In this document: positions 12,672 through 25,863 of the stretch, in pieces
How the letters are laid out: the number at the start of each line of letters is the position of its first letter
Position numbering within the stretch: position 1 is the first letter of the stretch
Origin: a virus
IMG/VR virus record: IMGVR_UViG_3300034061_000205
Span: 1-26,366 of that record
Direction: 5' to 3' (one strand)
Length of the DNA: 26,366 nucleotides
The notes under the pieces: generated by a model
What the model was told of the DNA's origin: nothing
Databases searched by the model: none
The model's input: the letters and a program-made list of their open reading frames with translations, nothing else
Made by a program: the position numbers and the translations under genes

Positions 12672-15600
12672 ATGGCTTTGATTCTGAAAGATAGGGTTAA
12701 AGAAACTAGCTCTAGCTCTGGCACAGGCAGTATTACGCTTGGTGGTGCATTTCCTGGCTATCAAACGTTTAATGCCGCCATTGCTTCTGGTTCTACCGTT
12801 TACTACACCATTCATAACTTAACCGCCGGATTTGACGGCGAGTGGGAAGTTGGTCTTGGTACGTTCACGTCCCCAGCTACACTGGCTAGGACTACGGTTC
12901 TTTCTTCGTCTACAGGATCAGCAGTTAACTTTACCGCTGGCGCAAGTGGTCTCGAGGTATTTATTACCCAGCCAGCTGAAGAAGCGGTATACATCAACCA
13001 AGCCACAGGTTTAGTAGAAGCGTTTGGTAACGGTGCAAATACTATTGCTTTTACAAACATTAATGCTTCTAACGTAGTCATGGTATCAGGCACAATTAGC
13101 ACCAACGCTGCTAATGCCACGGATATTACCAATAAGACTTACGTTGACGGGCTTTTTTCCACAGGCATCACGTACCACGACCCTGTTCTTGTTGAGTCCC
13201 CAACGGCTTTAATTGCCACGTATAACCAACCAGGTGGCGCAGGTAACGGCGTAGGCGCTACGCTGACCAATAGTGGTTCAAACGTAGCCTTAAGTATCGA
13301 TGGTGTGTCATTATCTAACACAGCTCGCGTTTTGGTTTATACCCAGTCTAATGCCGCCCATAATGGTGTTTATACGGTTACTAATGCGGGTGCGCCCGAT
13401 GCTCCTGGTCCTGGGGCTGCCTGGGTACTTACTCGTGCTACTGATGCTGATACCTTTGGACTTGCTAACCCTAATCAGTTGGGCCAAGGCGACGCATTTT
13501 TCGTACAGTCTGGTAATACAGGCGCTGGTGAGACTTACATTTGTAATACCGTAGGCACAATTACGTTTGGCTCAACCAACATTACGTTTGCGCAGATTAG
13601 CTCTTCCCAGATTTATTCTGCTGGTACGGGTCTTACCCTTGCCAACCTGGCATTTAGTATTTCTAATACAGCCGTTACAGCTAATACTTATGGTAACGAT
13701 GGCGCAGTTGGTCAGTTTACGGTTAACGCACAAGGCCAGATTACCAATGCTGCTACGGTGTCTGTTAACGCTTCGGCTATTTCAGTAGGTACTTTAGCAA
13801 ACGCTAGAACAACCGCTTCAGATGCAAACGGTGCTTCAACCATCGTAGCTCGTGATGCGACTGGTTCGTTCACTGCTAATACAATTACAGCAACCACGTC
13901 TAACGCTACGACCTTTAACGGCACGACAGGTAACTTCACCAATATCTCAGGCAATGGTGTATCTCTAACCGCCATCAACGCGTCTAACATTACTAGCGGC
14001 ACAATTGCCAATGCTAGAACAACGGCTTCAGATGCAAACAGTGCCTCCACGCTTGTTGTTCGTGATGCTAATGGCGCATTTGCGGCGGGCAACGTAACTG
14101 CAGCAAACTTTATTGGTGCTGGTGCAACCATCACTTCTATTAACGCAAGCAACATCTCGTCTGGAACCATCGCAAATGCTCGCACTACTGCGTCTAGCTC
14201 TAATGGGGCTTCTACTATTGTTCAGCGTGATTCTGGTGGTAACTTTAGCGCTAATACTGTAACAGCTGCCGTTATTGGTGATCTGTCTGGCGGCTCAAAT
14301 ATTAATGCGTCTAACATCGCTTCGGGGACTATTGCAAATGCGAGAACTACTGCTTCCTCTAGTAACGGCGCTTCTACTATTGTTCTGCGCGGAGCTTCTG
14401 GTGAATTTGCTGCTGGGGCAATAACGGGCGCATCTTTCTCTGGTAACGGTTCTGCCATTACTGCTATCAACGCTTCGGCGATTACTACGGGAACCTTAGA
14501 CAATGCCAGGACTACTGCTGCTTCTGCCAATGGTGCTTCCACTATTGTGGCTCGTGATGCTGGGGGTAATTTTAGTGCCAATACGATAACGGCTACAACT
14601 TTCAGCGGTTCTGGCGCTTCTTTAACTAATATCCCTAATGGCGCTTTGGTTAACTCGTCTACGACTATTAACGGTACAGCTATTGCTTTAGGCGCATCTG
14701 GAACTATTACTGCAACTGCAACTAATTCATTGACTTTTGGAACAGGCCTTTCTGGCGTTCCTCCATTTGCCACTTCGTATAACGGTTCTACAGCGGTAAC
14801 AATTACCAATAGTGGCGTATTAAGTTTAGCTAACGGCGGCGGTATTACTGCAAGCACTTCTACTGGGGCTATTACTTTAGGCTCTACTGCTAATTCGGCT
14901 AACGGAGCGTCTACGATTGTGGCTCGCGACTCTAATGGATCATTTACTGCTAACGTAGGTACGTTTACTACAGTTAGTGGCGCTGGTGGTGGTTTGACAG
15001 ATATTAATGCCTCGAGCATATCGTCAGGCACAGTAGCCACAGCTCGTCTTGGTTCTGGTACAGCTAACAGTTCTACTTTTTTACGTGGCGATCAAACGTA
15101 TGCAGTAGTTTCTTCAGGTACGGTAATCCCTGCTGGTACGGTTATGTTGTTTGCCCAAACCACGGCGCCGACAGGATTTACTAAAAATACGACTACAGGT
15201 GATAACTCAGCGTTGCGGGTTACAACGGGTACAGCAAGCACGGGCGGTTCTGTAGCGTTTACTACAGCGTTTGCAAGCCAAACACCTACTGGCTCAGTAT
15301 CAACTACAGTAAATAACCAAACTGCAACGAACCAAGCCCAAACAGCAACTAACATAGCGACAACAGCAACTAACCAGGCTCAAACGGCAACGAACCAATC
15401 AATTACACCAACTGGTTCTGTATCTATTACAGCAGTTGCAGGTAGTGCTGGCGCTACAACGCTTTCTACACCTCAAATCCCAAGTCACACCCATCCTGGT
15501 GGAGTTAGCAATACACAAGGTTTTGGTACTGGCACTAAATTTGAACCTTCTGGTTCAGCTTTTGTCCCTCCAGCAGTTGCTACAGGTGGCACTGGTGGTG

Positions 15601-15836
15601 GTGGTAGCCACACTCACCCATTTAGCTTCTCAAGTGGTTCTGGATCGTTTACTGGTAATGCTGTCACTGCACTACAAAACTCGCACAATCACACGCAAGA
15701 TTCACATAACCATACGCAAAATTCACATAATCACACACAAGATGCTCACAATCACACTGCGTCAAGTTCGTTTACTGGTAACGCAATTAACCTTGCGGTT
15801 CAATACATTGACGTCATTCGTGCAACTAAGGATTAA
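12672..15836 (+). CDS. Large modular tail fibre protein with collar-like, His-rich tip
   Basis: This 1054-residue protein is probably a trimeric receptor-binding fibre. The N-terminal 110 residues (ILKDRVKETSSSSGTGSITL ... GSAVNFTAGASGLEVFITQP) form the type of virion-attachment domain found in many fibres. Residues 366-654 hold five shaft modules with INASNITSGTIANARTTAS-type cores, with partial copies further on. From about 818 the tip is homologous to the second fibre's (gene at 18784): PAGTVMLFAQTTAPTGFTK, Thr/Gln/Asn-rich repeats around 880-920, then TTLSTPQIPSHTHPGGVSN. Near the end NSHNHTQ-type heptads repeat four times. HxH-rich tips bind metal in T4 short fibres. Strong AGGAG site before the start. 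Confidence 0.87.
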   Translation: MALILKDRVKETSSSSGTGSITLGGAFPGYQTFNAAIASGSTVYYTIHNLTAGFDGEWEVGLGTFTSPATLARTTVLSSSTGSAVNFTAGASGLEVFITQPAEEAVYINQATGLVEAFGNGANTIAFTNINASNVVMVSGTISTNAANATDITNKTYVDGLFSTGITYHDPVLVESPTALIATYNQPGGAGNGVGATLTNSGSNVALSIDGVSLSNTARVLVYTQSNAAHNGVYTVTNAGAPDAPGPGAAWVLTRATDADTFGLANPNQLGQGDAFFVQSGNTGAGETYICNTVGTITFGSTNITFAQISSSQIYSAGTGLTLANLAFSISNTAVTANTYGNDGAVGQFTVNAQGQITNAATVSVNASAISVGTLANARTTASDANGASTIVARDATGSFTANTITATTSNATTFNGTTGNFTNISGNGVSLTAINASNITSGTIANARTTASDANSASTLVVRDANGAFAAGNVTAANFIGAGATITSINASNISSGTIANARTTASSSNGASTIVQRDSGGNFSANTVTAAVIGDLSGGSNINASNIASGTIANARTTASSSNGASTIVLRGASGEFAAGAITGASFSGNGSAITAINASAITTGTLDNARTTAASANGASTIVARDAGGNFSANTITATTFSGSGASLTNIPNGALVNSSTTINGTAIALGASGTITATATNSLTFGTGLSGVPPFATSYNGSTAVTITNSGVLSLANGGGITASTSTGAITLGSTANSANGASTIVARDSNGSFTANVGTFTTVSGAGGGLTDINASSISSGTVATARLGSGTANSSTFLRGDQTYAVVSSGTVIPAGTVMLFAQTTAPTGFTKNTTTGDNSALRVTTGTASTGGSVAFTTAFASQTPTGSVSTTVNNQTATNQAQTATNIATTATNQAQTATNQSITPTGSVSITAVAGSAGATTLSTPQIPSHTHPGGVSNTQGFGTGTKFEPSGSAFVPPAVATGGTGGGGSHTHPFSFSSGSGSFTGNAVTALQNSHNHTQDSHNHTQNSHNHTQDAHNHTASSSFTGNAINLAVQYIDVIRATKD
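13767..14633 (+). repeat. Tandem fibre shaft modules (five copies)
   Basis: Five related modules start at 13767, 13977, 14142, 14304 and 14469. The first is 70 codons, the others 55, 54, 55 and about 55. Each has an INAS core, a GT-ANARTTAS segment, an NGASTIV-RD segment and a beta-like end. Copies differ at the DNA level. Partial copies occur near 14898 and 15006. They encode a repetitive fibre shaft. Confidence 0.85.
15678..15758 (+). repeat. Histidine-rich 21-base repeat (NSHNHTQ heptads)
   Basis: Four consecutive 7-codon units (15678, 15699, 15720, 15741) encode N/D-S/A-H-N-H-T-Q, the last cut to six codons. They place eight histidines as HxH pairs near the tip of the large fibre. The DNA copies differ at several wobble bases, so the repeat is kept by selection on protein or is not very recent. 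Confidence 0.85.
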
Positions 15837-15838
15837 TA

Positions 15839-16165
15839 ATGGGAACAATTAAAAACGGCACGTTTTGTCCGCTAATTAAAAAAGACTGCGTTGGCCTTAC
15901 CTGTGCCTGGTATACCCGTGTGCAAGGGTATGACGTAAATACTGGGAACCAAGTAGATAGTTATGAATGTGCAATATCGTGGCTACCTATGCTTTTAATT
16001 GAAAATTCTGGGCAGCAGCGCAGTACTGGAGCGGCGGTTGAATCATTTAGAAACGAAATGGTAAAGTCAAACGAAAAAGCCCAGCAGCTTTTACTAGCTA
16101 CCGCAGGTATTGTGCAGGTGCAAAACGAGGACCAACCAAAATTAATTAGGAGCATTGAAGAATGA
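15839..16165 (+). CDS. Small conserved Cys4 phage protein
   Basis: This 108-residue protein has an N-terminal motif NGTFCPLIKKDCVGLTCAWY (6-25) and CAISWLPMLLIENSGQQRST (44-63). Cys 10, 17, 22 and 44 (spacing 6, 4, 21) could hold zinc or an iron-sulphur cluster. A helical part with GAAVESFRNEMVKSNEKAQQ (64-83) follows. I recall it as a conserved phage protein in tail regions, function unknown. The start overlaps the region just after the fibre stop (TAATAATG), without an obvious ribosome site, so coupling to the fibre gene is likely. Confidence 0.74.
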   Translation: MGTIKNGTFCPLIKKDCVGLTCAWYTRVQGYDVNTGNQVDSYECAISWLPMLLIENSGQQRSTGAAVESFRNEMVKSNEKAQQLLLATAGIVQVQNEDQPKLIRSIEE

Positions 16166-16455
16166 AATTAACTATTATTCCTATCGACAACACAGTCTAT
16201 ATAGACGGCGTTGTGAAACCTTGGGGCATAAAACCTCTTGATTTAAGTAATTGTGGTATTCCTTCTGATGTTCACGCACTCCAATGGGATAACGGAAGTG
16301 GTTGGATTGAATTTAAGGATCCAGTACCTAATCAAGATATAACTTCGCTACCAGAATGGGCAAATGCTTGTGTGGAGACTTGGAATCAGTGGACTCCATA
16401 TGTGCCGCCACCAACCCCACCAGTAGATCCAACTATTCCAGTAACAGAAATTTAA
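16162..16455 (+). CDS. Small protein next to fibre genes, function unknown
   Basis: This 97-residue acidic protein has an N-terminal beta-like part, MKLTIIPIDNTVYIDGVVKP, then SDVHALQWDNGSGWIEFKDP (35-54) and a helix around WANACVETWNQW. The C-terminus is Pro-rich (PPPTPPVDPTIPV). The N-terminal two-thirds resembles a family of small phage proteins (VHALQW ... GWIEF) found beside tail-fibre genes, possibly attachment or assembly factors. It overlaps the previous gene by 4 bases (ATGA) with TTAGGAG upstream. Confidence 0.68.
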   Translation: MKLTIIPIDNTVYIDGVVKPWGIKPLDLSNCGIPSDVHALQWDNGSGWIEFKDPVPNQDITSLPEWANACVETWNQWTPYVPPPTPPVDPTIPVTEI

Positions 16456-16458
16456 GCT

Positions 16459-16827
16459 ATGTCTAGTTATCCAGTAACTAAAATATCTTGTGTTGCTAAT
16501 TTATTTAGTAGGATGATGCACTTTCAAAAAAAGGGTGACAAAGAAAATGGTCATTCTCATGTGTTCAATCATTTAACTTTATTAGCAAAAGGTTCTCTTG
16601 AAGTTACTGTTGATGGGCGCGTAACTGTTTTTAATGCCCCCCATATGATCTATATTAAAAAAGATAAGCTGCATGAACTTGTTGCGTTGGAAGACGACAC
16701 AATAGCTTTTTGCATACACGCGCTAAGAGATGGTGAAGGTGTAGATGATATTTTGGACCCTGACAGCATACCAGAGGGAACAGACTTACTAGAGATTGCA
16801 AAAAATATAATTCGGAAACCTGAATAG
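16459..16827 (+). CDS. Cupin-fold protein
   Basis: This 122-residue protein is a single small cupin. Metal-ligand-type residues are in ENGHSHVFNHLTLLAKGSLE (29-48: H32, H34, H38), with H72 in KLHELVALEDD and H87 in AFCIHALRDG. The GHxH-x(3)-H pattern differs slightly from the classic HxH-x(3,4)-E. It probably binds a divalent metal; substrate unknown. Base composition is clearly more AT-rich than the head genes. It comes just before two 2OG-Fe(II) oxygenase-like genes and overlaps the next by one base. It could be an enzyme modifying virion or cell components, or a sugar-binding fold. Confidence 0.78.
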   Translation: MSSYPVTKISCVANLFSRMMHFQKKGDKENGHSHVFNHLTLLAKGSLEVTVDGRVTVFNAPHMIYIKKDKLHELVALEDDTIAFCIHALRDGEGVDDILDPDSIPEGTDLLEIAKNIIRKPE

Positions 16828-17372
16828 TGAATGCCCAACTTGAGCAAAACAATTTTTTATTTGTTCCTAACTTCATTAGTCAGGAGCGTGCTCAAGATTT
16901 AAATTCTTGGTTGTTGTTAGAACGTGATGCTGGACGCCTTATTGATGATCCTCGTTCAAACTATGGTTTATATGGAAAAGCGTACCAAGATGCAATACCT
17001 TTTCTAGAGTTGCTTTGTGAAAAAAGAAACGAAGTAACTAATTTAGTTGAGGAATCGGTTCTACCTACGTATTCTTTTTGTATGATTTATGGCCCAGAAA
17101 GCCAACTTATAAAACATTTAGATAGACCTGCTTGCGAAATTAGTTTGACTGTACATCTAAACGGCGATGCAGAATGGCCTATTTTTATTAAAAAACCATC
17201 TGGTGAAGAAGTATCTTTTAAATTAAACCCTGGAGATGCGGTTATTTATCTGGGATGTATAGCAGAACATTGGCGTGAAAAATTTAATGGGCAAAGTTAT
17301 AGCCAAGTATTTTTGCACTATGTTCGTAGTAATGGGCCTAACGCCTGGGCATATTTTGATAAAAGAAAATGA
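16827..17372 (+). CDS. 2OG-Fe(II) oxygenase-like protein (first of two)
   Basis: This 181-residue protein has a double-stranded beta-helix layout: QLIKHLDRPACEISLTVHLN (93-112) provides H97-x-D99, and GDAVIYLGCIAEHWREKFNG (136-155) the distal H148, with SQVFLHYVRSNGPNAW following. These match the iron triad of prolyl-4-hydroxylase-like dioxygenases. The usual R-x-S 2OG-binding motif is not obvious at the end, so co-substrate use is uncertain. The start is GTG, overlapping the cupin stop; the nearby ATG at 16831 is in another frame. It overlaps the second oxygenase gene by 4 bases. AT-rich like its neighbours. Target unknown; hydroxylation of a fibre or host molecule is possible. Confidence 0.78.
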   Translation: MNAQLEQNNFLFVPNFISQERAQDLNSWLLLERDAGRLIDDPRSNYGLYGKAYQDAIPFLELLCEKRNEVTNLVEESVLPTYSFCMIYGPESQLIKHLDRPACEISLTVHLNGDAEWPIFIKKPSGEEVSFKLNPGDAVIYLGCIAEHWREKFNGQSYSQVFLHYVRSNGPNAWAYFDKRK

Positions 17373-17926
17373 ATCAATTAAAAGACTACATATTGCTCGT
17401 GCCAAACGTAATTCCAAGTGAGTTATGCGATGCTGTACTGTCTGAATATAAAGAATGCGATAGCTGGGTTTCTGCAAATATAGCAAATGGCACAAATTTA
17501 AACGTACGGAATTGCCAGACAATAGGTATATCGTTTGACAGCGTTATAGAACAAAATAAAGAAGTAAGACAGAAAATAGATCAAAATCTTTTTAGCTGCG
17601 CTGCAAACGCTATAAAAGAATATAGAAACAAATTTGATAAGTGCACGATTGAACAAGACTCTGGTTATGATTTACTTAAGTATGATGTAGGTAATTTTTA
17701 TGTAATCCATACAGATTCTTTTAAAGACCGGCCCAGAGCAGTGTCTTGTTCATTTGCATTGAATGACGGATATGAAGGTGGTGAGTTTGCGTTTTTTAAT
17801 CGTGAGCTGGTGTATAAACTAAAAAAAGGTGATGCTCTAATGTTTCCTTCTAATTTTATGTACCCACACGAAATTATGCCCGTGACTAGTGGTACACGGT
17901 ACTCTATTGTTACTTGGTTTGTATAG
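17369..17926 (+). CDS. 2OG-Fe(II) oxygenase, prolyl-4-hydroxylase-like (second of two)
   Basis: This 185-residue protein has the full catalytic set: LLKYDVGNFYVIHTDSF with H114-x-D116, the distal H167 in MYPHEIMPV and R177-Y-S179 in SGTRYSIVTWFV for 2OG binding. The GYEGGEFAFF (134-143) and LKKGDALMFP (151-160) segments are typical of prolyl-4-hydroxylase-like enzymes. Enzymes of this class use oxygen and 2-oxoglutarate to hydroxylate proteins or nucleic acids. Similar genes are common in cyanophages and other marine phages. It starts in an ATGA overlap with the related gene before it, and sequence similarity between the two is low. AT-rich. Substrate not identifiable. Confidence 0.87.
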   Translation: MNQLKDYILLVPNVIPSELCDAVLSEYKECDSWVSANIANGTNLNVRNCQTIGISFDSVIEQNKEVRQKIDQNLFSCAANAIKEYRNKFDKCTIEQDSGYDLLKYDVGNFYVIHTDSFKDRPRAVSCSFALNDGYEGGEFAFFNRELVYKLKKGDALMFPSNFMYPHEIMPVTSGTRYSIVTWFV

Positions 17927-17934
17927 GATAAGCC

Positions 17935-18774
17935 ATGACTTTTGGCTTTTCGCCCTACGCTGCAGCACCTTTTGCTGATACTGGTGAGGCTAGTCTTGGT
18001 ATTTCAGTTCAGTTAACTGGGGTATCGGCTATAGGTGTAGTTGGTACGGCTGCTGTTCAAACAGATAACAACATAGATGTAACAGGTGTAAACGCAGTAG
18101 GTGCAGTAGGCACTGTAGAGGTTCAAGCTGGTGGAAGCGTAGATTTAGTTGGCATTAATACGCCATGTTTAGTTGGCACTGTAGATGTAGAAGCCGACAG
18201 TAATCTTGCTTTGACTGGTGTAAATGCAGTTGGCGTTATTGGCGATGTAGACGTTCAAATTAATGCAGATGTGCTTGTTACTGGTGTTAGTTCGGCAGTT
18301 CAATTAGGAAACGTAGAAGTTACTGGCACTGCGGTTGTTGATTTAGTCGGTGTTACGGCTATTGGGGTTGTTGGAACCGTAACTGCCGCGGCTAATGCAG
18401 ATGTTAACGTGACTGGGGTATCTTCAGTCGTTAATTTAGGTAACGTAACTGTAATTGGTGGAGCAGTTGTTAATCCTACTGGGGTAGTAACCGTTGGTAG
18501 AATAGGCGATGTTTCGGTAAATACCGATCAAATTATTGATGTTACTGGGGTTAGCGCAGTAACTAGACTTGGTAACGTAGAAGCTGCGGCTAGTGCTGAT
18601 GTTAACGTAACAGGCGTGTCTGCTATTGGCGTAGTAGGAACCGTTAGCACCGCTGCAAACGCTAATGTTAATTTGACTGGTGTTAGAACCGTTGTTAGAC
18701 TAAATAAACAAAACGTTTGGGGCTTAGTAAATACTGCGCAGACCCCAAATTGGACAGAAGTAATAGCGGCTTAA
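17935..18774 (+). CDS. Repeat fibre-like protein of ten 22-residue units
   Basis: This 279-residue protein has an N-terminal cap (MTFGFSPYAAAPFADTGEAS), ten 22-residue repeats at 28-247 without any insertion or deletion, and a partial eleventh. A consensus is TGV-SAIGVVGTV followed by about ten less conserved residues ending in V-V. It closes with QNVWGLVNTAQTPNWTEVIA, an end I recall from other phage structural proteins. The regular hydrophobic pattern suggests a beta-solenoid or trimeric beta-fibre. Only a few charged residues occur, mostly Asp. It lies between the oxygenase pair and the second fibre gene. Confidence 0.8.
   Translation: MTFGFSPYAAAPFADTGEASLGISVQLTGVSAIGVVGTAAVQTDNNIDVTGVNAVGAVGTVEVQAGGSVDLVGINTPCLVGTVDVEADSNLALTGVNAVGVIGDVDVQINADVLVTGVSSAVQLGNVEVTGTAVVDLVGVTAIGVVGTVTAAANADVNVTGVSSVVNLGNVTVIGGAVVNPTGVVTVGRIGDVSVNTDQIIDVTGVSAVTRLGNVEAAASADVNVTGVSAIGVVGTVSTAANANVNLTGVRTVVRLNKQNVWGLVNTAQTPNWTEVIAA
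18016..18675 (+). repeat. Ten tandem 66-base coding repeats
   Basis: Units begin at 18016 and every 66 bases to 18610, each coding for 22 residues with a TGV or VGV start and an IG-V-G-V or LGNV core. A further partial unit starts at 18676. There is no frame slippage or length change. Units differ clearly at DNA level, so this is not a young duplication. Confidence 0.88.
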
Positions 18775-18783
18775 GGATAAATT

Positions 18784-19842
18784 ATGGCAAGTACATATTC
18801 ACCAAGTTTAAAAATAACCCTGATGGGGGATGGCGATCAATCAGGTCTTTGGGGTCAAACTACCAATGTAAACCTAGGCACTTTGATTGAACAGGCTATT
18901 ACTGGTGTTACTTCAATAGTCATGTCCGATGCTAACTACACCTTAACTAATTTTGATGGTGTATCAAACGAAGCTAGAAACGCGGTTTTAGTAGTTACTG
19001 GAACAAATAATGCAGTCAGAGACTTGATTCCACCAGTCGTTAAAAAACTATATGTTGTTGCAAACAATACTTCGGGCGGCTACGCAATCCGGGTCATAGG
19101 GGCTTCTGGTACGGGTGTGTCTATAGCTAGTGGTGCTACTCAAGTTGTTTACTGTGACGGAACTAATTTTATTGCAGCGTCTGGGGCTTTTACTAACGGA
19201 GCTGTTTTAAATGTGCCTAGTGGTGGTACAGGACAAAGCACATTAACTGCTAATAACGTTATTCTCGGTAATGGTACTTCTCCAGTTACTTTTGTATCTC
19301 CATCAGTATCAGGAAATTTTTTACGTTCTAACGGAACTACTTGGGAATCAGCAGCACCTCCTGGTGCCGAATTTAGTTCGGGTACCAGAATGACATTTAA
19401 TCAAACCGCTGCCCCAACTGGTTGGACTAAAGATACAAGTGTTGATAATGCTGCGTTTAGATTAGTTAGTGGGTCTGTTAGTTCTGGGGGCACTTTAAAC
19501 TTTAGCGCAGTATTTGCTGCTTCATCTAGCACGGTTCCTGCTGGTTCAGTATCTATTAGTTCTATTGCTGGTTCAGCAGGTGCAACTACCTTAAGCACAC
19601 CTCAGATCCCAAGCCACAGCCATTCTGGTGGAGTTAGTAGTACCATTAGTCGTGCTGGCCCAACCAAATTTGACCCTGGTGCTCCAGCTTTTAACCCCCC
19701 ATCAGTTGATACAGGTACTACAGGCGGTGGCGGTTCACATACACATCCGTTCTCATTTAGTTCTGGTTCAGCTAGTTTTACTGGCACTGCCCTAGATCTT
19801 GCTGTCAAGTATGTTGATTTAATTATTGCTCAGAAAAACTAA
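18784..19842 (+). CDS. Second tail fibre protein, tip homologous to first fibre
   Basis: This 352-residue protein has an N-terminal attachment domain (MASTYSPSLKITLMGDGDQS, then LWGQTTNVNLGTLIEQAITG) that I recall as the standard start of many phage fibres. A beta-rich part follows, then NVPSGGTGQSTLTANNVILG. From about residue 196 the tip is homologous to the large fibre: APTGWTK, IAGSAGATTLSTPQIPSHSH and GGGGSHTHPFSFSSGS. It lacks the Thr/Gln repeats and the SHNHT heptads of the large fibre. The site before the start, TTAAGGATAAATTATGGCA, is identical to that of the portal gene. It may form an alternative or second receptor-binding fibre. Confidence 0.85.
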   Translation: MASTYSPSLKITLMGDGDQSGLWGQTTNVNLGTLIEQAITGVTSIVMSDANYTLTNFDGVSNEARNAVLVVTGTNNAVRDLIPPVVKKLYVVANNTSGGYAIRVIGASGTGVSIASGATQVVYCDGTNFIAASGAFTNGAVLNVPSGGTGQSTLTANNVILGNGTSPVTFVSPSVSGNFLRSNGTTWESAAPPGAEFSSGTRMTFNQTAAPTGWTKDTSVDNAAFRLVSGSVSSGGTLNFSAVFAASSSTVPAGSVSISSIAGSAGATTLSTPQIPSHSHSGGVSSTISRAGPTKFDPGAPAFNPPSVDTGTTGGGGSHTHPFSFSSGSASFTGTALDLAVKYVDLIIAQKN

Positions 19843-20065: not shown

Positions 20066-20677
20066 ATGGCTGGAAAGTTAAATGCAGACGATACGCTGAC
20101 TAAAGTATTAGCGTATGTAGATTCACCATTTAAGCTGTTTGCCATTGTTTTGATGGCTGTTTTTGCATTTACGGGCTACATTATTTATGACCACAAAGAG
20201 TTAATTGTCGGTACTTACAAGGAAAGCCAAAAGCTACCTAGTATTAACAAAGACAGAGTTGATGAGGTAGCGGTTCATTTGTTTAAAACGACCGATGCAA
20301 CTGTAGTAACAATATTCAAAGTTAATCCTTTGCTTGCTACTCGAATACAGTACCGTGCTTACACAACAAATGGTCGGGATAAAACAAACGATGGCTTAGA
20401 CGTAGGGTTGTTTACAAGTAATCAAAAGAACAATGAAGATGTAGTAGCTTTAATGGCTGGCAATATACCTTGTGGTGAATACAAAACGGCTCAGTCAGAA
20501 ATTGGGTTGTGGTATTTAGAAAAAGGGATGAGATACGGTTGCAGAATTAGTGTGCCGCCTGACCCTAGTAAATTTGTAGGACAGATTACGGTTGGCTGGG
20601 AAAAACAACCAGCAGATTTAGAACAAACAAGAGCAATGCTTTTTATTGCAGCAACTATGTTATCGAGGAAAAAATAA
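20066..20677 (+). CDS. Single-span membrane protein near lysis genes
   Basis: This 203-residue protein has a short N-terminal soluble segment, one transmembrane helix at about 21-41 (PFKLFAIVLMAVFAFTGYII) and a mixed alpha/beta domain of about 160 residues with positive and negative charges. The helix has no lipobox Cys, and the domain after it would lie outside the inner membrane if the N-terminus is inside. It stands directly before the holin gene with a one-base overlap. A lysis accessory or spanin-like role is possible by position, but long coiled coils and Pro-rich stretches typical of spanins are absent. A membrane protein for DNA entry is another option. Confidence 0.7.
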   Translation: MAGKLNADDTLTKVLAYVDSPFKLFAIVLMAVFAFTGYIIYDHKELIVGTYKESQKLPSINKDRVDEVAVHLFKTTDATVVTIFKVNPLLATRIQYRAYTTNGRDKTNDGLDVGLFTSNQKNNEDVVALMAGNIPCGEYKTAQSEIGLWYLEKGMRYGCRISVPPDPSKFVGQITVGWEKQPADLEQTRAMLFIAATMLSRKK

Positions 20678-21087
20678 TGCTAGGACTAGACACCATCGTT
20701 GGCGTAGGAATGAAGCTAATTGACAAGCTGATCCCTGATCCAGCCGCTAAAGCACAAGCCCAGTTAGAACTTGCCAAACTTGCCCAAGATGGCAAATTAG
20801 CCGAAATACAAGCTGATACCGCAGAATCCCAAGAAGTCACCAAACGGGCGCAAGCGGACATGGCAAGCGATTCTTGGCTGTCAAAGAACATTCGCCCAAT
20901 GACTTTAATCTTTATCCTTGGTGGCTATTTTGTGTTTGCCATGATGAGTGCTTTTGGCAACAACGCTAACGAGAAGTATGTAGAACTGCTGGGTCAGTGG
21001 GGCATGCTTGTGATGTCGTTCTACTTTGGCGGTCGTACCCTTGAGAAGATTATGGACATGAAGTCGAAAGAAAAAGATGCAAAGTAA
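20677..21087 (+). CDS. Holin (GTA-type 3TM family)
   Basis: This 136-residue protein fits the GTA_holin_3TM family (PF11351 by memory). The N-terminal half is charged and helical with LIPDPAAKAQAQLELAKLAQ (18-37), then SDSWLSKNIRPMTLIFILGG, two hydrophobic segments at about 74-93 and 103-121, and a lysine-rich tail. The family is named for three membrane spans; here the amphipathic N-terminal helix could be the third. Holins make pores in the inner membrane that release the endolysin and time lysis. The start overlaps the previous gene, and the endolysin starts inside its end (11-base overlap). Confidence 0.87.
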   Translation: MLGLDTIVGVGMKLIDKLIPDPAAKAQAQLELAKLAQDGKLAEIQADTAESQEVTKRAQADMASDSWLSKNIRPMTLIFILGGYFVFAMMSAFGNNANEKYVELLGQWGMLVMSFYFGGRTLEKIMDMKSKEKDAK

Positions 21088-21595
21088 TTTTGAAACCTGC
21101 CTAGCAAAGATGCTTGCCCACGAGGGCGGCTTTGTAAACCATCCGCAAGACCCTGGAGGTATGACCAATCTAGGCGTTACAAAACGAGTTTGGGAAGAAT
21201 GGGTAGGTCACGAGGTTGACGAGAAACAGATGCGGGCGCTTACCCCTGAAACCGTTGCACCACTTTATAAAAGGAAATACTGGGATGCTTGCCGAGCTGA
21301 TGATCTTGTGGCTGGGGTTGACTACTGTGTTTTTGACGTCGCTGTTAATTCGGGCCCAGGGCGAGCCATTAAGTTTTTGCAGTCGTGTGTTGGTGCTACT
21401 GCTGATGGTGGTTTTGGTCCTGCTACTCTCGCCGCCGTAAAAAAAGCGGAAGAAGACCCAGCACGATTAGTAGAACTCTATTGCGCTAAACGGTTAGAGT
21501 TCTTACAATCACTAAAGACCTTTGAAACCTTTGGTAAGGGCTGGTCAAGGCGCGTTGCCGAGGTCAAAGAAGAAGCACTCAAAATGTTAGGGTAA
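21077..21595 (+). CDS. Endolysin, GH108-type N-acetylmuramidase
   Basis: This 172-residue protein matches glycoside hydrolase family 108. MLAHEGGFVNHPQDPGGMTN (12-31) holds the catalytic Glu (E16), with LGVTKRVWEEW next, then a YKRKYWDAC segment, FDVAVNSGPGRAIKFLQSCV (90-109) and a DGGFGPATLAAV motif. The C-terminal part resembles the peptidoglycan-binding domain that usually joins GH108. It cleaves cell-wall glycan at the end of infection. Residues 1-25 show no signal peptide, so release depends on the holin encoded upstream, which it overlaps by 11 bases. Length is normal for the family. Confidence 0.91.
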   Translation: MQSNFETCLAKMLAHEGGFVNHPQDPGGMTNLGVTKRVWEEWVGHEVDEKQMRALTPETVAPLYKRKYWDACRADDLVAGVDYCVFDVAVNSGPGRAIKFLQSCVGATADGGFGPATLAAVKKAEEDPARLVELYCAKRLEFLQSLKTFETFGKGWSRRVAEVKEEALKMLG

Positions 21596-21600
21596 ACCCC

Positions 21601-23778
21601 ATGCCGTTACAGAAACTACAATTCCGTCCAGGAATTAACCGAGAAGGTACCGATTACAGTAACGAGGGTGGTTACTTCGACTGTGACAAGGTACGCTTTC
21701 GTTCTGGTTTTCCTGAGAAGATTGGCGGCTGGACTCGGATGGCAAGTGCCCAGTTTCTGGGGTATGCCCGCTCGTTATGGAATTGGATTGCATTAAACAG
21801 TTCTAACTATTTAGGTGTTGGCACTGAAATTAAGTATTATATTGAGCAGGGCGGTACATACAATGACATTACGCCTGTTGTGTTTACCTCTGCAAACGTG
21901 GCTAATGCGTTTACGATTACTAACGGGTCAAACGTACTTACGATAGTTGATTCCTCCTACCAGCCAAACGTAGGCGATTATTTAACCATCTCAAATGCAG
22001 CCACAATCAGTACTAGCAACATAACTGCTGCGGTTTTAAATCAAGAGTACTCGATTACGACTAGGATTAATACTACAGCCTATACCGTGACAATGAGTGT
22101 TACAGCCAATCTTTCTGCGACTGGCGGAGGGGCTGCTACTGATATTGCTTACCAACAACCTGTTGGTCTTAATACATACACCATAGGTACGGGGTGGGGT
22201 GCAGGTCCTTGGCCTGTTACAGGCATAACAACTAACCTAACCAACCCTTTTACTACAACTAATGGCAGTAATTCTGTCGTAGTAACCCAGACAGCCCACG
22301 GTTTAACTAACGGGCAAGCGGTTATTTTTTCCAATGCTGCAAATACGGGCGGGGTTTCATCTGTTCTTTTAAATACCTTGTTTTACCCCACGGTGGCTAA
22401 TGCCAATGCATACACCATCACTGTTCAGGCTAATGCCACGTCTAACGTAGCTGGGGGCGGGGGTAACGTTATTGCCTATACTGAAACAGGTACTCGTGGT
22501 TGGGGTGAAGGCTTTACATCAGGTATTGGGCAACAGCTGCGCCTTTGGTCTAATGATAACTACGGACAAGACCTTGTAATTGCACCCCGTGGGGGAAGTG
22601 TTTTTTACTGGACAGCGGCTAATGGGCTTGCTACCCGCGCAGAACCTTTATCTAAATTGTCTACCGACAAAGGGTTTGACGGCACTCGCGTCCCAACGCA
22701 AACTAATCAGGTAGTAGCTTCGGCAATTCAGCGGTTTGTTATTTGTATGGGCGCTAACCCGTATGACCCAGTAACAGCAGCTACCACGTTTGACCCAATG
22801 CTGGTGCGCTGGTCAGATCAAGAAAACCCGTACGAGTGGGTTCCAGACGTAACAAACCAGTCAGGCGAGTTTAGGCTTTCTAGCGGCTCATTTATTATGT
22901 GCGCCCGCAATACCCGTCAGGAAATCTTGGTTTGGACTGACTCTACCATTTACTCGATGCAGTACTTAGGACCTCCTTATGTTTGGGGCTTTCAAGTATT
23001 GCAAGACAACATCTCCATCATGTCACCAAATGCGGCGATTACAGTAAATAACGTAACTTACTGGATGGGTGTGGATAAGTTCTATATCTATTCAGGCCGA
23101 GTAGAAACCCTACCTTGCTCGCTTTGGCAATACATCTTTAATGACATTAATAAGGAACAGGCGTTCCAGGTGTTTTGCGGCACAAACGAAGGTTATAGCG
23201 AAATCTGGTGGTTCTATTGCTCACAAGGTTCAAACGACATTGACAAGTACGTTATCTTTAACTACTTAGAGCGCAGTTGGTATTACGGCACTATGGCTAG
23301 AACGGCTTGGCTTGATTCGGGTATTCGCCAGTATCCAATGGCTGCAGACTATAACAGTCGGATGCTGTTTCATGAGAGTGCAGTAGACGACGTGTCAGGT
23401 TTAGAGCCTGTACCTATTAATGCTTATGTTCAGTCTTCGGACTTTGACATCGGTGACGGACATAACTTTGGCTTTGTGTGGCGCATCCTGCCAGATATTA
23501 ATTTTACTGGGTCAAACGTAAATCAGCCGTCGGTAACAATGACAGTCAAACCACGCCAAAACTCAGGAGCCCCATACGGCACGGCTAATAGCCCTAGGGT
23601 ATTAAGCAGTGACAATTACTCCAGCGTAAGCGTCTACAACATCCAAGAGTTTACGGGTCAGGTATATACCCGTCTGCGGGGCCGCCAGCTTGCTTTTAGG
23701 ATTGAGTCAAATACTCTGGGTGTGGCATGGCAGTTAGGTAGCCCACGAATTGATATTCGCAACGACGGACGTAGGTAA
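21601..23778 (+). CDS. Tail/DNA stabilisation-like structural protein with insertions
   Basis: This 725-residue protein starts LQKLQFRPGINREGTDYSNE, then FDCDKVRFRSGFPEKIGGWT (26-45), which matches the N-terminal pattern of the phage stabilisation family (P22 gp10-like, PF11134 by memory). Later segments such as VCMGANPYDPVT-like and WSDQENPYEWVPDVTNQSGE, and RNTRQEILVWTDSTIYSMQY, suit a tail nozzle or hub ring. Between about 95 and 280 there are two related beta-rich insertions beginning FTITNGSNVLTIVD and TTTNGSNSVVVTQTAHGLT. Function would be to close the tail channel and keep DNA inside. It begins 5 bases after the endolysin stop. Confidence 0.8.
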   Translation: MPLQKLQFRPGINREGTDYSNEGGYFDCDKVRFRSGFPEKIGGWTRMASAQFLGYARSLWNWIALNSSNYLGVGTEIKYYIEQGGTYNDITPVVFTSANVANAFTITNGSNVLTIVDSSYQPNVGDYLTISNAATISTSNITAAVLNQEYSITTRINTTAYTVTMSVTANLSATGGGAATDIAYQQPVGLNTYTIGTGWGAGPWPVTGITTNLTNPFTTTNGSNSVVVTQTAHGLTNGQAVIFSNAANTGGVSSVLLNTLFYPTVANANAYTITVQANATSNVAGGGGNVIAYTETGTRGWGEGFTSGIGQQLRLWSNDNYGQDLVIAPRGGSVFYWTAANGLATRAEPLSKLSTDKGFDGTRVPTQTNQVVASAIQRFVICMGANPYDPVTAATTFDPMLVRWSDQENPYEWVPDVTNQSGEFRLSSGSFIMCARNTRQEILVWTDSTIYSMQYLGPPYVWGFQVLQDNISIMSPNAAITVNNVTYWMGVDKFYIYSGRVETLPCSLWQYIFNDINKEQAFQVFCGTNEGYSEIWWFYCSQGSNDIDKYVIFNYLERSWYYGTMARTAWLDSGIRQYPMAADYNSRMLFHESAVDDVSGLEPVPINAYVQSSDFDIGDGHNFGFVWRILPDINFTGSNVNQPSVTMTVKPRQNSGAPYGTANSPRVLSSDNYSSVSVYNIQEFTGQVYTRLRGRQLAFRIESNTLGVAWQLGSPRIDIRNDGRR

Positions 23779-24476
23779 TGGCTGTCAACCCACAAATAAA
23801 GACCCTTGATCTTAGGCCGCCAAAAGCTCCTAACTTATTGATTGCGCCAGTAGATTACCGTCAGGCGTACCTTGACCAGCTTAATAACGCTTTGCGTTTA
23901 TATTTCAACCAGATTGATAACGGCTTAAGTTCTTTATTTTCGAATACTGGCGGGGCTGGGCTTAGTTTGCCCCATATTTCCGCTTCAGATAATGCCGACC
24001 AACTTGCTACTGCTTCTAATACACCAACGGAAGTAAAGTGGGATACGCTAGAGTCTGGCTTGGGATGGACACTAAATGCACCTGGAACGGCTACGGCAAA
24101 TGTTCCTGGTATATACACAATAAGATACAGCCTTCAGCTTGCAAATACCGATAATGCCCAGCATGACGCAGCGGTCTGGCTCAAAGTAAATACCTTTGAT
24201 GTGCCTAGATCTACCACTATATTTACCGTACCAGCTCGCAAAAGTGCGGGAGTTTTTAGCTATGTCTGTGCTTATTCAGAAGCTACGTTTCAAGTAGAGG
24301 CTGGCGACACCATATCGCTGTACTGGGCAACTAATCAAGCCTACGATAACTCACCCGCAACAGACGGTGTTTATATCGAATATATTGCAGCGCAAACTAG
24401 CCCATATGCAAGACCTGCAGTTCCGTCCGCTATTGGTTCAATTACCTTTGTATCAAGACTTCCAACAACGGTATAA
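23778..24476 (+). CDS. Virion protein with C1q/TNF-like C-terminal domain
   Basis: This 232-residue protein starts with an N-terminal part, PPKAPNLLIAPVDYRQAYLD and LNNALRLYFNQIDNGLSSLF, seen in many phage neck or tail proteins. A Ser/Gly-rich linker leads to a predicted jelly roll, with GIYTIRYSLQLANTDNAQHD (110-129), AAVWLKVNTF and EAGDTISLYWATN. The fold resembles C1q/TNF domains, which form trimers. It may be a small receptor-binding or decorating protein around the tail. It overlaps the gene before it by one base; the next gene starts 40 bases after its stop. Family is by recalled pattern and not searched. Confidence 0.72.
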   Translation: MAVNPQIKTLDLRPPKAPNLLIAPVDYRQAYLDQLNNALRLYFNQIDNGLSSLFSNTGGAGLSLPHISASDNADQLATASNTPTEVKWDTLESGLGWTLNAPGTATANVPGIYTIRYSLQLANTDNAQHDAAVWLKVNTFDVPRSTTIFTVPARKSAGVFSYVCAYSEATFQVEAGDTISLYWATNQAYDNSPATDGVYIEYIAAQTSPYARPAVPSAIGSITFVSRLPTTV

Positions 24477-24516
24477 CAATGATAAAGTACTACTTAATTT
24501 AGGCGAGGTATATCTT

Positions 24517-25863
24517 ATGGGAACCGGTGTAGGCGAGGCGATGTTAATTGGTGCTGCTGTCGGAGCGACGGCAGGTGGCGCTGGTGCGGCTATTCAAGGT
24601 GGAGACCCACTTAAAGGTGCGTTATTAGGTGGCGCTATGGGAGGCGTTGGTGGCGGTCTAGGAGCCGGTTTTGGTGCGGCTGGTGGAACTGCTGCGGGGG
24701 GTACTTCAGGGGTTACGGCGGGGGGTACTTCAGGTGCCGCTGCTGGTGGGGCTAGTGGAACTGCGGTTGGGTCTCTTTCTCCTACCGTTACTAGTTTGGC
24801 TGGTTCTGCCACACCTTCTACTTTTGGCGCTTTTTCTCCTGCTGTTACTAGTGGTATTGGCGCAGCGGTTCCTACGGGTGGTACTGTTGGGGCTCTTGCT
24901 GCACCTACAGGCGGTATTGCTGGTTTAGCTGTTCCTACAGGTAGCGCCCTTGCTGGTACAGGTGCTGGGGCTGTTGGTGGTACAGGTGGTGCTATGGCTG
25001 GTAACTTTACTGGTTTTGCCCCTGCTCTATCTAATACCGCTTTAGCCACTATTGGCGGTACTTCTTTACTTGGCGGCTTAATGCAGGCTGAGCGGGATGA
25101 TTTTGGTATTCCTGCGCAAGAAGACTATGTAAGCAGTTTTGACCCTTCTAAATTTAAACGATCTGAGCCTACCTACGCCCCAGGAAGTGTTTATCGCCCT
25201 GAGTATAGGGACTATACAACTGCGGCTGAAGGCGGCATTATGAAGTTAGCCAATGGGGGTCCAGTTGAGCGCATGAGCCAAATGAACACGGCTATGAACC
25301 CCCAAGGTGGCTTGTACCCACAAGGAATGATTGATAAGACCCAGTACGCTACCCCTACCCAGCGTCCAGTAAGTGCAGAATTAATGACGGAAACCCCCGC
25401 CTATGAGCGGTCTAACCCGATGCTAATGGCTGAAGGTGGTATTGCAGGAATTCTAGAATCTGCCAAAGCTCAAGGATTAACTCCAGAAGCGTATCAAAAT
25501 ATATATGGTCGAGGCAATGCCATTATCGAAATGGAAAAAGCCCTTAAAGAAGGCAAGATGGTTAACTTAGCTAGTGGGGGTATTTCTTCTTTAGGAGGGT
25601 ATTCAGATGGCGGCAGAATGCTTAAAGGACCTGGCGATGGTATGTCTGATTCTATTCCTGGGGTTATTGCTGGTAAACAGCCCGCCCGACTGGCTGACGG
25701 GGAGTTCGTGGTTCCTGCTGATGTTGTCTCTCATTTAGGCAATGGCTCTACAGATGCTGGTGCTAAACAGTTATACGCCATGATGGACAAAGTACGCAAA
25801 GCTAGGACAGGTAAAAAGAAACAAGCCCCAGCAGTTAAAGCTAACCGTTACATGCCTGCCTAA
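24517..25863 (+). CDS. Gly-rich tail/ejection-type protein with conserved C-terminal module
   Basis: This protein starts at ATG 24517, preceded by GAGG eight bases upstream; a longer in-frame reading from 24367 lies mostly inside the previous gene and is rejected. It has 448 residues. About 1-60 are a Gly/Ala-rich glycine-zipper-like hydrophobic stretch (LIGAAVGATAGGAGAAI), 60-190 a Gly/Thr/Val low-complexity run, and later parts carry repeated MKLANGGPVE, LMAEGGIAG and LASGGISSLGG elements. The last 78 residues contain GDGMSDSIP, PARLADGEFVVPADVVSHLG and STDAGAKQLYAMMDKVRKAR, a module I recall at the end of many phage tail-region proteins. Membrane insertion during DNA entry is a plausible role, unproven. 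Confidence 0.74.
   Translation: MGTGVGEAMLIGAAVGATAGGAGAAIQGGDPLKGALLGGAMGGVGGGLGAGFGAAGGTAAGGTSGVTAGGTSGAAAGGASGTAVGSLSPTVTSLAGSATPSTFGAFSPAVTSGIGAAVPTGGTVGALAAPTGGIAGLAVPTGSALAGTGAGAVGGTGGAMAGNFTGFAPALSNTALATIGGTSLLGGLMQAERDDFGIPAQEDYVSSFDPSKFKRSEPTYAPGSVYRPEYRDYTTAAEGGIMKLANGGPVERMSQMNTAMNPQGGLYPQGMIDKTQYATPTQRPVSAELMTETPAYERSNPMLMAEGGIAGILESAKAQGLTPEAYQNIYGRGNAIIEMEKALKEGKMVNLASGGISSLGGYSDGGRMLKGPGDGMSDSIPGVIAGKQPARLADGEFVVPADVVSHLGNGSTDAGAKQLYAMMDKVRKARTGKKKQAPAVKANRYMPA

Follow-up and report, generated by a model that had tools for sequence, protein, structure and literature searches.

Two adjacent Fe(II)-oxygenase-fold proteins and an optional cupin in a phage fibre locus, and the viral 'ferrochelatase' label

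What do three small genes encode that stand in one block between the fibre genes of a phage, and on what might their products act? The question is raised by an IMG/VR virus record of 26,366 bases, here called the window. From fibre 1 to the endolysin, every gene in the ORF list lies on the plus strand with inter-gene gaps of -11 to +9 nt, in the order fibre 1, g108, g97, cupin, oxy1, oxy2, rep22, fibre 2, a 69-aa protein, a 203-aa protein, holin and lysin. An earlier note on this DNA described a block of three metal-dependent beta-barrel proteins in the fibre region; family searches, predicted structures and residue conservation bear this out. The features of the locus are:

12672..15836, + strand: fibre 1, 1054 aa, HxH-rich C-terminal tip with six HxH motifs, weak match to PHROG 5342 (tail fibre)
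15839..16165, + strand: g108, 108 aa with four conserved cysteines, the block's constant neighbour on the upstream side
16162..16455, + strand: g97, a small tail protein in a short version
16459..16827, + strand: cupin, 122 aa, conserved H32, H34, H38 and H72
16827..17372, + strand: oxy1, 181 aa, GTG start, PHROG 2954 ('ferrochelatase'), triad H97-x-D99...H148
17369..17926, + strand: oxy2, 185 aa, PF13640 / PHROG 61, H114-x-D116...H167 and R177
17935..18774, + strand: rep22, 22-residue repeat protein
18784..19842, + strand: fibre 2, 352 aa, two HxH motifs, PHROG 31104
20677..21087, + strand: holin (GTA_holin_3TM, Pfam E 4.8e-11), downstream end of the same gene run
21077..21595, + strand: endolysin (Glyco_hydro_108 and PG_binding_3, Pfam E 3.5e-29)
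21601..23778, + strand: bigtail, virion structural protein (PHROG 3287), a landmark adjoining oxy1 in distant relatives

The cupin and oxy1 genes overlap by 1 nt (TAGTG), oxy1 and oxy2 by 4 nt (ATGA). The 22-residue period that had been reported beside the block is present in the gene that separates the block from fibre 2. Several neighbours have features of their own. The six HxH motifs of the fibre 1 tip (window 15486-15755) and the two of fibre 2 include four in SHNHTQ-like heptads; the metal-binding tips of T4-type fibres are likewise rich in HxH motifs. The conserved cysteines of g108 follow the pattern FCPL..DC....C....C and possibly form a metal or Fe-S site; the protein has no Pfam or PHROG match, yet it is highly conserved and occurs in 468 viral stretches. 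For g97, the C-terminal domain of 154-aa relatives weakly matches Phage_tail_APC, a tail assembly chaperone family (PF16778, E 2.5e-4 and 2.4e-3, below cut-off). Further downstream, a 498-aa ORF (window 24367-25863) with no Pfam or PHROG match contains a local GC peak of 58% with strong AT skew at 24501-25000.

In Pfam, oxy2 matches 2OG-FeII_Oxy_3 (PF13640; E 4.7e-16, 60.0 bits against a curated cut-off of 27), and it also matches PHROG 61. Its family profile, when searched against the PDB, retrieved prolyl 4-hydroxylases first (3itq, E 8e-9), followed by PHD2, prolyl 3-hydroxylase and lysyl hydroxylase 3. The motifs H114-x-D116, H167 and R177-x-S179 are present as the earlier note had read them. 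Among aligned oxy2 relatives, H114 and H167 are conserved in 100%, D116 and R177 in 93%. Alongside the HxD...H triad, R177 provides the basic 2OG anchor about 10 residues past the distal His. Profile matches and residue conservation show oxy2 to be a 2OG-Fe(II) oxygenase of the prolyl/lysyl-hydroxylase-like group. oxy2 also matches PHROG 2297 and 274, both labelled 'DNA endonuclease V'. Phage proteins carrying this label in two other stretches (L107:8552-9022; L317:5053-5532) show weak 2OG-FeII_Oxy_3 matches (E 0.002 and 0.03), and the 'DNA endonuclease V' phage proteins of PHROG 274 and 2297 are probably a second group of misannotated oxygenases.

For oxy1, Pfam yielded no match and sequence-profile searches of the PDB nothing useful, whereas PHROG 2954, a widespread phage family labelled ferrochelatase, is matched with E 5.9e-53. 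The AlphaFold2 model, built from 48 sequences, is a strand-rich barrel (pLDDT 95.6, pTM 0.90). Its best Foldseek match in the PDB is the prolyl-4-hydroxylase of P. putida (4j25, E 2.5e-9, TM 0.73); the complex of this enzyme with EF-Tu (4iw3) and several PHD2 entries are also among the top matches, and all 50 matches listed are Fe(II) oxygenases. Metal sites were judged by residue conservation, not by model geometry. The motif H97-x-D99 with H148, named in the earlier note, is present; all three residues are invariant (100%) in the 48 aligned sequences and also kept in homologues from cultured phages. At positions +9 to +12 from the distal His, oxy1 has S157, Y158, S159 and Q160. Since the usual 2OG-anchoring Arg is absent there, 2OG remains a putative co-substrate of oxy1. 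R150, Q160 and H164 are invariant in the same alignment and offer alternatives to the canonical anchor, the position of which varies within the 2OG-Fe(II) oxygenase superfamily.

The PHROG label, adopted in two studies (PMC9599517, PMC11561400), would make oxy1 a true ferrochelatase that works with a 2OG oxygenase in the metabolism of haem or iron. This is practically out of the question. Although all 48 aligned oxy1 sequences match both PHROG 2954 and PHROG 3531, none matches Pfam ferrochelatase, and neither does any of eight annotated phage 'ferrochelatases' (S-PM2, Syn30, P-SSM7, S-SM1, Mosig, HTVC008M, 023Pt_psg01, ACG-2014f). A strand-rich model of 181 residues with no ferrochelatase among its 50 listed Foldseek matches likewise argues against it, as do the invariant HxD...H and the fusion of oxy1 to a 2OG domain in several phages. 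Single genes in which oxy1 and oxy2 are fused occur in S-SCSM1, S-SCSM2R and ACG-2014f; PHROG 3531 is a single profile spanning both proteins, and the second half of the ACG-2014f 'ferrochelatase' matches 2OG-FeII_Oxy_3. An HxDR...H pattern is common in the alignment to window oxy1, seven of the eight 'ferrochelatases' (without ACG-2014f) and three more. oxy1 is thus shown to be an Fe(II)-oxygenase-fold protein and not a ferrochelatase; the oxygenase-fold identity and the rejection of the label, taken together, are held with near certainty.

This bears on published work. In a study of pelagiphage gene content, each 'ferrochelatase' studied has an adjoining 2OG oxygenase, and haem is discussed (PMC9599517). 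Elsewhere, phrog2954 and phrog61 were found seasonally enriched (PMC11561400). The authors of S-SCSM1 had already recognised two oxygenase domains in its ORF248 (PMC9602691). The pelagiphage co-occurrence of 'ferrochelatase' and 2OG oxygenase is most likely the two-oxygenase pair, and the observations of both PMC9599517 and PMC11561400 are read more simply in this way, which concerns the family label and not their abundance data. Published work in viral ecology treats PHROG 2954 as an auxiliary metabolic gene for haem/iron, as in the claim of seasonal enrichment (PMC11561400) and the study of pelagiphage gene content (PMC9599517). Such functional readings need revision, because fold, motifs and family searches indicate one half of a two-oxygenase pair. 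The practical result is a correction to a widely used annotation.

The third protein matches Cupin_2 with E 3.5e-5 and 23.9 bits, under the curated cut-off of 27.2, so that it is classed as cupin-like by fold only. In its model, the barrel core has a pLDDT mostly above 90, while the tails are of low confidence, and the core resembles KdgF in Foldseek (E 1.7e-5). The motif HSHVFNH lies at residues 32-38 as the earlier note had it, and H32, H34, H38 and H72 are conserved in 98-100% of the aligned relatives. Compared with the metal motif HxH...E...H, H32, H34 and H72 are conserved and H38 is found near the usual Glu position. The alignment shows a conserved, putatively metal-binding four-histidine site. 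The cupin might be an accessory enzyme or a metal-binding partner. It has no match among 50,697 phage records. Taken over all three proteins, the earlier assignment to 2OG-FeII_Oxy and cupin families stood in Pfam for oxy2, which is above the cut-off; the cupin was recovered as Cupin_2 below it, and oxy1 remained unmatched. The predicted folds are those expected for metal barrels, an oxygenase for oxy1 and a barrel for the cupin, and a conservation of 93-100% among relatives argues that the named motifs did not arise by chance.

Is the block a fixture of this position? To avoid selecting loci by the oxygenases themselves, g108 was used as bait. Among the best 80 of 468 viral g108 loci, oxy2 is present in 76, oxy1 in 67 and the cupin in 40; as these are the nearest of the 468, the counts describe one broad lineage. 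Removal of redundancy and short contigs left 58 non-redundant loci, 56 of which have oxy2 and 49 both oxygenases. The cupin is encoded in 27 of them, and eight have a second, shorter cupin-like protein (35 cupins in all), in which an HYH...H pattern was seen by eye and which has no Pfam or PHROG hit. The order is cupin-oxy1-oxy2 or oxy1-cupin-oxy2, or the cupin is lacking. An HxH-tipped ORF lies directly upstream in 57 of 61 loci. These counts and orders show the oxy1-oxy2 pair to be the norm at this place, with the cupin as a third member that can be absent, relocated or replaced; the three genes, regarded as neighbours in the earlier note, do occur together in relatives. As for the two loci that lack the pair, the slot of L119 is occupied by a DUF6445 protein, with an HxD...H pattern read by eye, and L138 has no such protein there. 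The window and locus L081, which lacks the cupin, share 90% identity in oxy1 and 65% in oxy2, and judged from such comparisons the window locus looks mosaic. Synteny among these related phages may reflect shared descent.

Relatives carry other genes in the same or an equivalent slot (L134:5657-7129; L024:8923-10401; L168:9127-10017; L036:8330-9942). They encode a carbamoyltransferase, a radical SAM/B12 protein and one that is like a glucosyltransferase; genes resembling methyl- and glycosyltransferases were recognised there by eye. The fused pair of S-SCSM2R has overlapping glycosyltransferases downstream. In several other phages, the cupin was recognised by eye among the translations, unaccompanied by the pair; it then closes fibre regions, and putative lysis genes often come next. 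Beside the cupin of a different phage, L067:8503-8919 resembles by eye an extra oxygenase-like protein of 16 cassette loci (e.g. L143:4981-5541) that has no Pfam or PHROG match.

The block is AT-rich, as had been noticed: GC content is 36.0% for the cupin, 35.9% for oxy1 and 35.3% for oxy2, against 45.8% for the window. The separate acquisition that the earlier note had derived from this is not supported in that form. In 74 of 74 relatives, a partly redundant set, GC of oxy1/oxy2 is below that of the neighbours (mean 35.4% vs 45.0%), and since low GC is stable in all of them, there is no sign of recent acquisition by this phage. AT-richness as a mark of recent transfer was consequently dropped. 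Selection or an old AT-rich origin may lie behind the low GC.

The association with fibre genes extends to distant relatives. Among 49 further viral oxy1 loci collected with the oxy1 profile (mostly 32-47% identity), 39 have homologues of bigtail, fibre 2 or the repeat protein within 6 kb. The same test was positive for five of 77 oxy1 loci from cellular genome assemblies, and the gene neighbourhoods of bacterial oxy1 relatives provided no clear functional context. In many distant viral loci the oxygenases stand after fibre 2 and before bigtail, another position in the same region. In the pelagiphages 023Pt_psg01 and Mosig, the oxygenase cluster precedes a tail-fibre-like gene and follows a tail fibre gene, respectively, and tail or fibre neighbours are found beside the fused pair of S-SCSM1. 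Exceptions are the cyanophages Syn30 and P-SSM7, where oxy1 lies in a DNA-replication cluster, and ACG-2014f with oxy1 near ribonucleotide reductase genes. In another locus, a 471-aa ORF (L203:6087-7502) that by eye is like a flavin-dependent tryptophan halogenase lies amid several oxygenase-like genes beside oxy1.

What, then, might the pair do? We tentatively favour, at somewhat less than even chances, a late fibre-locus modification cassette that hydroxylates a late phage protein, with fibre-associated proteins as the likeliest targets. This preference is based on the fold class, the position and the modifying enzymes in the same slot of some relatives. Transcription of the cassette would be late, in common with that of the fibre and lysis genes. 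Fe(II), O2 and 2-oxoglutarate would serve oxy2, and probably oxy1 as well, in hydroxylating side chains on a phage protein produced at that stage; this would most likely be the repeat protein, a fibre or a fibre chaperone. Hydroxylation could alter adhesin stability or receptor binding, and in some relatives the hydroxyl might be capped by glycosyl- or carbamoyltransferases of the same slot. The nearest solved relatives of both oxygenases are protein hydroxylases, which is consistent with a fibre target. The modification of fibre proteins suggested in the earlier note is thus backed by the conserved placement, the late same-strand run and the nearest folds, but the candidate sites failed simple tests. 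In Mantel tests, oxy2 co-diverged weakly with the fibre tip (partial rho 0.23, p 0.004), and no co-divergence was found for oxy1; these signals are not relied on, because several tests were made on small sets. No work on virion hydroxylation in phages was found in the literature.

Three candidate substrates were rejected. The proline-rich tail of g97 contains PP in 81 of 119 cassette loci, and in close relatives, L081 among them, an Ala/Gln tail takes its place. Prolines beside the HxH tips of fibres are also present in L119 and L120, which are without the pair. Collagen-like Gly-X-Y repeats were not seen in the fibres of the window.

Alternatively, the enzymes might act on small molecules such as amino acids or the 2-oxoglutarate pool and redirect host metabolism, as cyanophage and pelagiphage 2OG oxygenases have been interpreted (PMC9602691, PMC11561400). 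Some oxy1 genes do lie outside fibre loci, and several Foldseek matches of oxy1 are small-molecule enzymes (HygX, SnoN, OkaE). However, the fibre-locus placement is conserved, the top matches are protein hydroxylases and no metabolic partner genes were seen beside the window pair; we consider auxiliary metabolism unlikely. Glycosyltransferases, a carbamoyltransferase and a methyltransferase in some relatives, together with the resemblance of the cupin core to the sugar-acid enzyme KdgF, would fit a role of the enzymes and the slot transferases in altering sugars of host-surface or phage-borne glycans. Most loci, including the window, are without such transferases, and the oxy2 profile matches are protein hydroxylases, which makes glycan modification quite unlikely. 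Finally, the top Foldseek match of oxy1 is the P. putida enzyme (4j25, and 4iw3 in complex with EF-Tu). It evokes the hydroxylation, late in infection, of a host protein for translation or regulation, comparable to the action of this prolyl-4-hydroxylase on EF-Tu. Yet a distant fold similarity at about 14% identity is not predictive of substrate, and a host target leaves the fibre-locus placement unexplained, so that this reading appears decidedly improbable.

Under the favoured reading, fibre-associated hydroxylation, the conserved placement makes the role of viral 2OG oxygenases addressable by mass spectrometry of virion fibres, possibly with existing proteomic data. A broader view, to which we give less than an even chance by a clear distance and offer as speculation, is that many aquatic phages have a dedicated, exchangeable fibre-modification locus of hydroxylases, optional cupins and glycosyl-/carbamoyltransferases. 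It would diversify the chemistry of receptor-binding fibres and so offer a post-translational way of changing the receptor, and the viral 'ferrochelatase' signal of ocean surveys would largely be this system.

Comparable systems are known. BaP4H, P. putida P4H, PHD2 and LH3, the nearest solved relatives, share the fold class and the Fe-binding triad with the window oxygenases, but identity is low and oxy1 is without the usual arginine. KdgF and TM1459, single-domain metal cupins, have the barrel core and in part the metal-ligand pattern of the window cupin, which in contrast stays under the Pfam cut-off and has a His in the usual Glu position. A virus-encoded prolyl 4-hydroxylase of PBCV-1 has viral proteins as its suggested targets (Eriksson et al., 1999, cited in PMC9301287), and tail-fibre collagen has been raised as a possible target (PMC9301287). 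PBCV-1 is an algal virus, likened here by description and not by sequence, and the window's fibres are devoid of collagen repeats. The oxy1-oxy2 pair itself is already known in cyanophages and pelagiphages, and the window is a variant of it. In S-SCSM1 ORF248 (PHROG 3531), both oxygenase domains reside in one protein with 45% and 50% identity to the window, downstream of g108 and g97 homologues as in the window. It differs by the fusion, a long insertion between the domains and the lack of a cupin, whereas the window has two overlapping genes. The pelagiphage and cyanophage 'ferrochelatase' and 2OG oxygenase (PHROG 2954 and PHROG 61; PMC9599517, PMC11561400) are the same two families, also adjacent, and the pairs of 023Pt_psg01 and Mosig adjoin tail or fibre genes like that of the window. 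Compared with them, the window lineage is set apart by an oxy1 identified as an oxygenase fold, a pair fixed in the fibre locus and a cupin that is often added.
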